Under the pieces are notes generated by a model. The model saw only the letters and a list, made by a program, of their open reading frames with translations. It made no database searches and was not told the origin of the DNA. A stretch of 64,000 bases of DNA, taken from contig OZ038422.1 in NCBI GenBank assembly GCA_964036155.1, positions 62,457,201 through 62,521,200 of the forward strand, in the 5' to 3' direction. Made by a program: the position numbers and the translations under genes. The DNA is from Diploscapter coronatus. Taxonomy: Eukaryota; Nematoda; Chromadorea; Rhabditida; Rhabditidae. Positions 684-5,016 of the stretch are shown one piece after another (positions within the stretch are counted from its first letter, which is position 1; the number at the start of each line of letters is the position of its first letter).

Positions 684-3600
684 ATGGTCTATATCGGAAT
701 CGATCTGGGTACGACATATTCGTGCGTTTCCGTGATTGAGAATGGAGTCCGTAAGATAATTTTTGATGGCGAGGGTAAATTAATTTTGATATATGATTTT
801 CAAAGTAATGAATTGTTTAGGGAAGAATTCTCTTCCATCTATAGTTTCTTTTGGTGACGAAGAAATTCTGGTAGGTAATCCAGCTCTGAATTACCATGAT
901 TTATCAAGTGTTCTCTACGGTTGGTTTAACGCTTCTGCTGATCATTTATTAGATAATCTTTTGAAGATTCAAAACGACTCCTTGGATGGAAATTTATGAA
1001 TAATTTGCCAATTGCGGAGAATCGTTTATTGTGGACATTCAATTTGGATACAAGACATGTGAGTAACGTATAGTTTTCAATAGAAGTCCACTCGACCTGT
1101 CGACTTTATCAGTCTCCTAAAAAGCTATCCAAATTATAAGCCAGGGATTTTCTAAAAGTATAAACATTGATCTAAATTATCCATCTCTTCACAAGATCAA
1201 ATTTTGACAAAATGAATAGCCTTGAGAGTTCAAAATCAAAACTTAGGGTAGATTTTATTATAGCTCTTACGGTATTTAATTTCAACTAATTTAGGATAAA
1301 GTTGGATATGTTTTGAATAAAGGAAAACCTAACGAAAGATTCGTGACGCCCGAAGAAGTTTCTGCCGAAATTTTGAAGAAAATAAAGGCGGTTGCTGAGG
1401 TCCGATATTTTTTTTATGTTCTGAAAGTTATAATGATTTTAATATTCAGTCGTATATTGGAAGTCAAGTGACTGGCACAGTGATCACAATTCCAGCTAAT
1501 TTTCAAGACAATCAAATAGCTGCAACAAAAAGAGCTGTTGAAATGGCTGGACTTGAATTGAAACTATTAATTGAAGAGCCAATAGCGGCGGCAATCGCTT
1601 ATAATGCTGAAAGAAAATTGAATAATTCAATGATAATGGTATTCGATTTTGGTGGAGGTAAATGGTTATTTTATTATAGTTTTTTCGTACAACTCATTTA
1701 TACGTAACTGGATTAGAAGGACTTTTATGCATTCGATTCTGAAAAAAGCAAATTAAAGCAACATGATTTAGGAACTCTCGATATTAGCATATGCGAAATA
1801 AAGAATGAAAAAATCACGATTAAGGCTGTGAAAGGAGATGAACATTTGGGTATATTTTATAAAATTGCAAGCCAACTCTTTTTTGTATCAGGTGGACAGG
1901 ATTTTGACGGCATAATTATGAACTATGTATATCAGGAATATATGAAAATATCGAATTACGATATTTTTGCAAATAATCGTTCGGTTAAACGATTGCGGAA
2001 CGAATGCAGAATGGCAAAAGAATCGCTCTCTTTTACTGCTTCAACAGTAAACATTCATGTAAACGGTAAAAAATAAAGCAATTGTATAATTTTCCCAATT
2101 TAGTTGGACATCGATATTGGGCCGAACTTAGATGTAAATTTAACAAAAACAAAATTAAATGAACTGTGTGATGGTTTATTCACCAGAGCGATAAATTTAA
2201 TCGATCAGGCATTAAAAATGGCTCGACTTCATGAAAATGATATTAGTCATGTGGTATGTTTTATTGAAATCAAATTTTTCGATTAATTTGTTAAAATGAA
2301 ATATTTGTATTTAGATTTTAGTGGGTGGATCTACAAGAATTCCTGCCGTTAAAAAGCTTCTAGAGGAAAAATTCGGAAGAGATAAATTGAAGCGCAACAT
2401 AAATCCAGATGAAGCCGTCGTATTTGGAGCAGCTATTTTGGCTGATGCTATTGAGGTAAAAATTATCATACTGCAAATATTTAAGCAAGTTATTCTAGAA
2501 CAAAAAGGAGATTCCATTGGTTAATGATACAACGAATGAGTTAACCCAGAATATCAATAATTCGCAAATTGGTGAAAACGCTAATCCTGGAGAGGCTGTA
2601 GCCCATGAAACTGAGATTAATGCAAATGATTTGGAGGTTTGAAAATAAATAATTCATTATTAAAATGGAAGTTATAGTTACAGAAAGGAATCGAAATGCC
2701 ATTGATTGAATTAGCTCGAAATATCAATAATTTGCAATTTGGTGGAGACAATTCATTCGATAATTCGAATAAAGTTTTATTTTATCGTAAGAAATGATGT
2801 TGAAAGCTAAGTAGAGACTTTGAAACGATTCATAATAATTTAGTTTATTATAAAATGAATGATAATAAAGAGAAAGGAAGAATAAGCTTGTTCAATTTAT
2901 CTACCTGCTCAGTCGAGGGGATTGCAGAATGTCAGAATTATTATCATCCATATGAAGTAGCAACTACACAGAATAAAGTAAATTCTTGTGCTCGTTATTT
3001 TTAATGATTTCTTGGTTTCAGATTTTTGGAATTAACGCATTTGAAAAGTCATTTGAAATATATGACTTGAATACCCGGCAAATTTCAAGAGGTCTGCTCA
3101 ACAACTCCATGAATGATCGATTCAAAGAACTTTACAGGTCAAGATCCTCTTAAATGGCGTGTTAATGCATTTGTGGCTTATTTTAAAGGCAAAGTGTATT
3201 ATTTGGGTGGAGGCAAGAATCGCGTCCGCGTTGATGTAAGAAGATCGAATCAAAGTCCACGAAATAATTTATTCAGATTTTAATAAATGGAAAATGGCAA
3301 ACAGGACCTGCCCTTCCTCTTCCAACTATACGTGCTCAAGCAATAACATGCGATGAAATTTTATACGGTCAGATTATAGCATATTCATTATTGTAATTAT
3401 GGATATTCAGTTATTGGTGGATGGAATACTAAAAAGATATATCGATTATCAGACGATGAACGGGAATGGATTGAAGTCGGAAAGCTTCCAGAAAGACGAA
3501 TTTATTTCGGAGTTGCATCGCTAAATGAAAGAATTTACATAACCGGAGGATGGGAGTCGTTAATTTTGTATGATAATAATGTATCATTATATATTTAGTT

Positions 3601-5016
3601 CTTCTAATGCATTGAAATCCTGTCTGTGTTTTGACCCCTCAGCTCCAGTTGGAAATCGAATTTCTCAAATCGCTGATATGAATTATGGAAGAGAGTATCC
3701 TTCACTCATTGTCGCTAACGGGAAATTGTATGCAATCGGAGGGTGAGCTGAAATTTTGCATATCTTTATATGAAGTATTTGTTAACTTAGACTTCAAAAA
3801 TTTTCATGGCAAAGTTTTTGTAATTCAATCGAGGAATACGATCCACAAACAAATAAATGGCGTGAAGTCGGAAACATTAATTCGCATAAAATTTTATTTT
3901 ATCGTAAGAAATTATGTTGAAAGCTAAGCAAAAGACTTGAACGATTCGTAATAATTTAGTCTTTCATCGAAACAATAGTAGAGATGAAGGAAGAATATGT
4001 TTGTTCGGTTCATATACCTGCTCAGTCGAAGAGATTGCAAAATTCAATAATTGCTATAACCCATATCAAGTAGCAATTACAAAGGATCAAGTAAATTCTT
4101 ATGCTCGTTATTTTAATGATTTCTCAAATTTCAGATTTTTGGAATTAACGATGAAAATAAATCATTTGAAATATTCGACTTGAATACTCGGCAAATTTCA
4201 AAAGGTTTTATCAACAAATCCATGAATGATCGATTCAAAGAATTTTACAGGCCCAGATCCTCTTAAATGGCGTGTTAATGCATTTGTGGCTTATTTTAAA
4301 GGCAAATTGTATTATTTGGGTGGATGGAATCCTGAAACAAGGGAAAATACGAATCGAGTTGATGTAAGAAGATCGAATCAAAGTCCATGAAATAATTCAT
4401 TCAGGTTTTAATAGACGGAAAATGGCAAACAGGACCTGCTTTTCCTCTTTCAATTAGATGTGCTCAAGCAATAACATGCGATGGAATTTTATACGGTCAG
4501 ATTATAGCATATTCATTATTGTAATTATGGATATTCAGTTATTGATGGATGTGATAGTGGAAAGATATATCGATTATCAGACAATGAACGGGAGTGGGTT
4601 GAAATCGGAGAGATTTCAAAAGGACGACTTCATTTCGGAGTTGCATCGCTAAATGGAAAAAATTACATAACTGGAGGATACTAGTCGTTAATTTTGTATG
4701 ATAAATAATGTATCATTATATATTTAGTTCTTCTAATGTATTTAAATCCTGTCTGTGTTTCGACCCCTCAGCTCCAGTTGACAGTCGAAGTTCTGAAATC
4801 GCTGATATGAATTATGCAAGATATCGTCATTCGCTCATTGTCGCTAACGGGAAATTGTATGCAATCGGAGGGTGAGTTGAGATTTAGCATATCTTTATAT
4901 CAAATATTCGTTAACTTAGATTTCAAAAATCATATGAAAATTTTTGTAATTCAATCGAAGAATACGATCCACAAACGAATGAATGGCGAGAAGTCGGAAC
5001 ACTAAACTTTGAATAA
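684..5016 (+). CDS. Chimeric Hsp70 ATPase domain-kelch repeat protein
   Basis: A 25-exon model gives about 986 residues. Exons 1-9 (684-774, 821-919, 967-1058, 1295-1399, 1450-1657, 1772-1849, 1892-2058, 2104-2253, 2315-2455) encode a full Hsp70 nucleotide-binding domain, residues 1-377. Visible motifs are the phosphate-1 loop IGIDLGTTYSCVSV, the phosphate-2 motif VFDFGGGTLDIS and the adenosine motif ILVGGSTRIPAVKKLL. The substrate-binding domain is absent. Exons 10-11 (2499-2636, 2684-2786) encode an 80-residue Asn-rich tail with an imperfect internal repeat (NINNSQIGEN / NINNLQFGGDN). Exon 11 ends TTTTATC|gtaag, exactly where the kelch units join each other, and runs in frame into unit 1 (2844-3903) and unit 2 (3960-5016). 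Each kelch unit is about 265 residues with blades ending YYLGG, VIGG, ITGG and AIGG. In unit 2 the donor must be TA|gtcgtt near 4683, because the donor three bases later leaves an in-frame TAG. An alternative is two adjacent genes, but phases match at every junction. Confidence 0.72.

Follow-up and report, generated by a model that had tools for sequence, protein, structure and literature searches.

An Hsp70 nucleotide-binding domain followed by tandem kelch propellers in a predicted protein of Diploscapter coronatus

Introduction

Few machines in biology are as strongly conserved as Hsp70, whose genes are usually counted by their ATPase domain. In a 64,000-nucleotide stretch of the nematode Diploscapter coronatus (contig OZ038422.1, positions 62,457,201 to 62,521,200 of the forward strand; the window hereafter), the interval 684-5016 is predicted to encode an Hsp70 nucleotide-binding domain (NBD) and, behind it, two kelch propellers. 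The locus raises the questions of whether both parts belong to one protein and what such a protein would do. An initial annotation of the DNA had proposed that the propellers replace the Hsp70 substrate-binding domain (SBD) and that ATP switches them. Here, we describe what very probably is one predicted protein, and we suggest that it acts as a target-recruiting adaptor.

Results

One open frame joins an Hsp70 NBD to two propellers

A manual gene model, in which splice signals, homology and frame guided the choice of exon boundaries by eye, yielded a single stop-free open reading frame (ORF) of 985 aa in 25 exons, running from ATG 684 to TAA 5014-5016. All 24 introns are GT-AG; 22 measure 41-61 nt, and the remaining two 236 and 114 nt. 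The junctions are thus in phase and free of stops, as the initial annotation had stated. Pfam HSP70 (PF00012) matched residues 4-379 (E 4.8e-105) and Kelch_1 (PF01344) matched six stretches (E 3.7e-49); on these E-values we rejected a chance ORF. The PDB matches of the protein are Hsp70 NBDs (E about 1e-84).

The domain order is an NBD, a linker of about 70 aa and two kelch propellers (Table 1). No SBD was found in the 985-aa protein: the match covers positions 2-378 of the 599 in the PF00012 profile, those beyond 378 are unmatched, and kelch follows there instead. Both the lack of an SBD and the placing of kelch in its position, as first annotated, therefore hold. BTB, BACK and F-box domains were not listed by the Pfam scan (E up to 1). 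The linker holds a duplicated exon of the NBD end and linker (NINPDEAV...IENKKEIPLV versus NANPGEAV...LEKGIEMPLI), which aligned with a score of 78, whereas 1000 shuffles scored at most 52.

The architecture recurs in Diploscapter pachys

The best protein matches in both the kelch and the NBD searches, among the matches listed, are from Diploscapter pachys, at about 37-63% identity. Among the best 120 of 1076 matches to the kelch half, three proteins carry both HSP70 and kelch, all from D. pachys. The best 120 of 7942 matches to the NBD half include 22 D. pachys proteins, and 14 of these carry this kelch behind the NBD; the search with gene C, described below, added P0260 as the fifteenth. Kelch follows the NBD in none of the 87 other Hsp70s (P0151-P0237), and the fusion may exist elsewhere beyond the matches listed. 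The initial annotation had called the architecture unheard of. No description of an Hsp70 NBD-kelch fusion was found in the literature searched, with most subscription journals outside its scope; however, the architecture is not solitary, being shared by at least 15 annotated D. pachys proteins.

The join probably lies within the first propeller strand

The two kelch units noticed initially are both present, and can now be described as tandem propellers of about 265 aa each, produced when about 1.1 kb of DNA was duplicated. The duplication starts within the last Hsp70-side exon, and the end of that exon, NSNKVLFY (residues 450-457), is apparently the first propeller strand. Because of these two features, the 2787-2843 intron appears to lie within the propeller, in its first strand, and not at a domain border as a "linker-to-kelch" intron, as first annotated. 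In the AlphaFold model of the D. pachys homologue P0140, a strand (242-249) was predicted with modest confidence at the equivalent of NSNKVLFY, and the model matches KLHL20, KLHL3 and Keap1. The same intron is found between the propeller copies (3904-3959), in gene B and in gene C. We infer six blades per propeller, without a count in a complete model.

The NBD and the propellers very probably form one predicted protein, which would be spliced from one mRNA. Across the propellers A1 and A2 of this locus, B1 and B2 of gene B, and C of gene C, the first six kelch exons differ in length only by multiples of three, an agreement that is only partly independent since the boundaries were chosen with the frame in view. 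Alternatively, two genes may lie here: an NBD-only Hsp70 that ends at the in-frame stop of intron 10 or 11, followed by a kelch gene with its start at ATG 2855, perhaps as a trans-spliced downstream cistron. Several points favor this alternative and weigh against a single protein. Retention of intron 10 or 11 brings an immediate in-frame stop and an NBD-only product; AATAAA stands at 2768, in the last Hsp70-side exon; the ATG lies just past the acceptor of the 2787-2843 intron; and the spliced leaders SL1 and SL2 are reported for D. coronatus in the available part of PMC5483258. The D. pachys models, which are machine annotations, also speak partly against the single join. The LFY segment is joined to the third kelch exon in 8 of 15 proteins (P0004, P0124, P0130, P0131, P0132, P0136, P0139 and P0147). 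Both exons that encode blades 1-2 (in the window, 134 + 70 nt) are thereby skipped in frame, owing either to alternative splicing or to an annotation habit. P0127, P0135 and P0260 join at other points, and P0001 and P0005 appear to merge neighboring genes. The structure models are likewise weak: P0140 has a mean predicted local distance difference test (pLDDT) score of 63, with 58-67 at the join, and a predicted template modeling score of 0.50, and P0122 falls below a pLDDT of 50 at the join. Against the two-gene alternative, the likely first propeller strand is encoded upstream of the 2787-2843 intron, and four D. pachys models (P0001, P0005, P0122 and P0140) read across the same join in full, into blade 1. 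The in-frame ATG 2855 is missing from A2, B1, B2 and C, as well as from these four complete joins. Because the in-frame join is conserved and the ATG is not, we regard a split near 2786/2844 as very unlikely.

The ATP site is kept and the coupling residues are replaced

We aligned the window protein with 16 relatives (17 family rows, with P0125, P0128, P0141, P0142, P0144, P0150 and P0260 left out) and numbered residues by P0151, which is close to Hsc70. The ATP-site residues are largely kept: D10 in 15/16 rows, T13 in 15/16, K71 in 12/14, E175 in 17/17, D199 in 16/17, T204 in 13/15 and D206 in 13/14. All seven are present in the window protein, in agreement with the intact nucleotide motifs of the initial annotation. 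Of 20 columns assigned to the nucleotide site, some with approximate labels, 18 are canonical-invariant and none is changed.

R155, R171, N174, Q377 and Y149, however, are kept in none of the 17 rows, and the linker residue D396 in 2 of 15. The window protein has I, L, E and L at R155, R171, N174 and Q377, and N at the linker Asp. We take R155, R171, N174, Q377, Y149 and D396 to be DnaK R151, R167, N170, Q378, Y145 and D393; this correspondence between DnaK and Hsc70 numbers is our own assignment, with approximate labels in some cases. Opposite the canonical linker, the alignment places a hydrophobic linker-like motif of the IPLV/MPLI type, and L391 is kept in 15/17 rows. In the available text of PMC4595643, DnaK R151A and D393A are defective in both signaling pathways. 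That of PMC4022485 places R151, R167 and N170 among the residues linked to DnaJ binding or ATPase stimulation, and has R167 contacting Q378. By their titles, PDB entries 2qwn-2qwq hold Hsc70 R171C cross-linked to auxilin D876C. Of 109 canonical-invariant columns, 11 belong to the literature list; 7 of these are changed, versus 16 of the 98 others (p 0.0015, with columns not independent and rows related).

Some observations weaken a link between these replacements and the fusion. The family rows share descent, and 0/17 does not amount to 17 independent events. P0121 and P0126, both among the 17 rows, have Ile at 155, yet their models are without kelch. N174 is also replaced in the kelch-less P0128, P0141, P0142 and P0125, indicating that this site does not track the fusion. 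P0128 keeps R155 and R171, as do P0144 and P0150, two D. pachys Hsp70s that have an SBD-like part, and other kelch-less relatives are mixed at these two sites (P0141 R/G, P0142 K/R, second domain of P0125 R/Y). Judged by these alignments, the R155 change follows the kelch family best among the coupling sites, though inexactly. In the D. pachys proteins P0128, P0141 and P0142, a divergent second Hsp70-like domain, in place of kelch, stands behind a related Hsp70 head.

The same propeller stands behind an F-box-like head

Searching the window with the 985-aa protein (tblastn) revealed two further kelch loci, genes B and C (Table 1). Neither an Hsp70 nor an F-box head was found upstream of the gene B propellers, and the gene ends in acidic repeats of the ESDPKESDSE type. 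Scanned on its own, the head of gene C scored 20.6 bits (E 3.9e-4) against Pfam F-box-like, below the cut-off of 24.3. The gene C search gave nine D. pachys relatives with the UniRef name F-box domain-containing; eight of nine D. pachys candidates scanned showed a weak, sub-threshold Pfam F-box-like match, and P0240 showed none. In a custom-profile scan, ten proteins of D. pachys and a further, unnamed protein showed F-box plus this kelch; the F-box profile includes five of the D. pachys proteins and gene C, which match by construction. Because the same propeller and phase-1 intron stand behind an F-box-like head in gene C and D. pachys, we consider this one propeller family with two heads. 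We do not claim a direction for the head swap: in a tree of 16 propellers, 1 of 13 inner branches is starred, and the Hsp and Fbx labels require 3 changes each.

We then compared divergence among the propellers. Over whole units, the ratio of nonsynonymous to synonymous substitution rates (dN/dS) was 0.895 for A1/A2 and 1.015 for A2/B2, that is, no clear purifying selection; against C it was 0.41-0.52. For the first two kelch exons, the values were 0.17 (A1/C) and 0.18 (A2/C), with dS near saturation; these low values count as indirect evidence for the single protein. Exons diverged more than introns in 10 of 10 propeller pairs (uncorrected p <0.05 in 4). For A1/A2, the divergence was 0.143 in exons versus 0.072 in introns (p 0.004), and two introns were identical where aligned. 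Introns less diverged than exons, as in 2787-5016, are a pattern of genes in which selection is diversifying or introns are constrained. We do not claim positive selection on the propellers because nine of the ten pairs had a dN/dS of less than 1.

Other features of the window

Hsp70 fragments with an SBD-like part and shifting frames lie at 10460-11320 on the minus strand; they are nearest to D. pachys P0150 and probably represent a decayed gene. ORFs at 6890-7882 (plus strand) resemble, by eye, a broken mariner/Tc-type transposase. Adjoining gene C, at about 50400-49520 on the minus strand, are exons that look, by eye, like Mediator subunit 19 and have a lysine-rich tail. A heat-shock promoter for the Hsp70-kelch gene is unsupported: the first 700 nt hold one heat-shock-element-like site (1 mismatch), versus 0.59 expected from the window density. 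An Rfam scan of the window gave nothing at the gathering threshold.

Table 1. Positions of the Hsp70-kelch gene, its parts and the two further kelch loci in the window
Feature	Positions	Strand	Basis
Hsp70 NBD, residues 1-379, exons 1-9	684-774, 821-919, 967-1058, 1295-1399, 1450-1657, 1772-1849, 1892-2058, 2104-2253, 2315-2455	+	Gene model, PF00012
Linker, exons 10-11; final ~25 nt the likely first propeller strand NSNKVLFY	2499-2636, 2684-2786	+	Gene model, DNA repeat, AlphaFold model of P0140
Phase-1 intron, probably within first propeller strand	2787-2843	+	Gene model; recurs at 3904-3959 and in genes B and C
Kelch propeller 1, seven exons	2844-2977, 3022-3091, 3138-3235, 3277-3367, 3411-3555, 3599-3742, 3791-3903	+	Gene model, Pfam
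Kelch propeller 2 and stop, seven exons	3960-4090, 4135-4204, 4251-4363, 4405-4495, 4539-4683, 4728-4871, 4920-5016	+	Gene model, Pfam
Tandem DNA duplication giving two propellers, ~1.1 kb each	2761-3877 and 3878-~5000	+	DNA repeat, aligned pieces 81-90% identical
Gene B, two tandem propellers, same ...FY| join; first identified exon not a start exon	14951-17508	+	tblastn, gene model, Pfam
Gene C, F-box-like head (residues 3-36) and one propeller, same phase-1 intron, 320 aa	48548-47274	-	Gene model, Pfam

Discussion

We propose that the Hsp70-kelch protein is a target-recruiting adaptor that probably does not refold heat-damaged proteins, a reading that we moderately favor on sequence grounds. 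It would fall to the propellers to capture selected partner proteins. The Hsp70 head, with its kept ATP site, would bind ATP without the usual coupling to J-proteins and a substrate domain, and its response to J-proteins may have been lost. The head could either hold the target or connect it to factors besides J-proteins, and the tandem duplication of the propeller may provide higher avidity or a wider target range.

The initial annotation instead proposed an ATP-switched recruiter or a selective chaperone; in a conventional form of such a switch, the propellers would respond to ATP and J-proteins in the way that an SBD does. The kept ATP-site residues and the IPLV/MPLI-type motif at the canonical linker position, with its L391, are in line with this idea. 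However, R155, R171, N174 and Q377 are replaced in 17/17 rows and the linker Asp in 13/15, and the corresponding DnaK R151A and D393A changes are described as impairing both signaling pathways. Because the coupling residues are replaced though the ATP site is kept, any ATP switch must be wired differently, and we consider a conventional Hsp70-like switch unlikely. It is also conceivable, though a little less probable still, that the fusion is young, decaying or unexpressed, functionless, and spread by tandem duplication. The dN/dS values near 0.9 (A1/A2) and 1.0 (A2/B2), the headless gene B and the broken Hsp70 nearby would fit such decay, and the dN/dS values also count against an adaptor. 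Against decay stand the three loci in the window, with their open frames and splice sites, and the recurrence of the architecture in D. pachys at roughly 37-62% identity. The adaptor proposal is the reading that we retain.

The pairing of this propeller with two heads suggests that propellers of F-box (ubiquitin-ligase-type) adaptors also feed targets to an Hsp70-derived head. As a speculation to which we give only a small chance, Diploscapter may have interchangeable adaptors, in which a fast-evolving kelch sits either on an F-box, to destroy a target, or on a J-free Hsp70 head, to hold or shield the same kind of target; the reported "heat" expansion of Hsp70 would then consist largely of target-capturing adaptors.

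The protein resembles several known systems in part. It shares the NBD fold and the ATP-site residues with cytosolic Hsp70, Hsc70 and DnaK, but it lacks an SBD, has the coupling residues replaced and bears kelch propellers. STCH/HSPA13 is an NBD-only Hsp70 relative that likewise lacks an SBD, but it has no propeller. The BTB-kelch proteins KLHL20, KLHL3 and Keap1 share the kelch propeller, whereas no BTB or BACK domain is listed for the window protein. In gene C and the ten D. pachys proteins, this propeller stands behind an F-box-like head, which links them to the F-box-kelch proteins (known as FBK/KFB in plants), whereas the 985-aa protein bears an Hsp70 head instead of an F-box. In the available text of three further papers, kelch is mentioned only for a Caenorhabditis indel (PMC6826867) or for plant F-box genes (PMC8665587), and neither kelch, Hsp70 nor F-box occurs in that of PMC5483258.

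The Halicephalobus mephisto genome paper (2019) described a Diploscapter-only Hsp70 cluster (Cluster III, 59 genes), reported positive selection at the root of this cluster, interpreted the expansion as heat adaptation and treated the members as Hsp70 chaperones (PMC6872716). The word "kelch" appears nowhere in its main text. WR25_05901 (branch J of that paper, named in its Table 3) is our match P0128. Cluster III and the Hsp70-kelch genes have the genus and related Hsp70 NBDs in common, whereas P0128 lacks kelch and keeps R155 and R171. The Hsp70-kelch genes are likely members of Cluster III; in that case, a role in protein refolding should not be taken for granted for much of the expansion. 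Counts of Pfam HSP70 genes, on which the inference of Diploscapter heat adaptation is based, may mix chaperones with other proteins. If our reading is true, the Hsp70 ATPase is reusable as a head for unrelated targeting modules.
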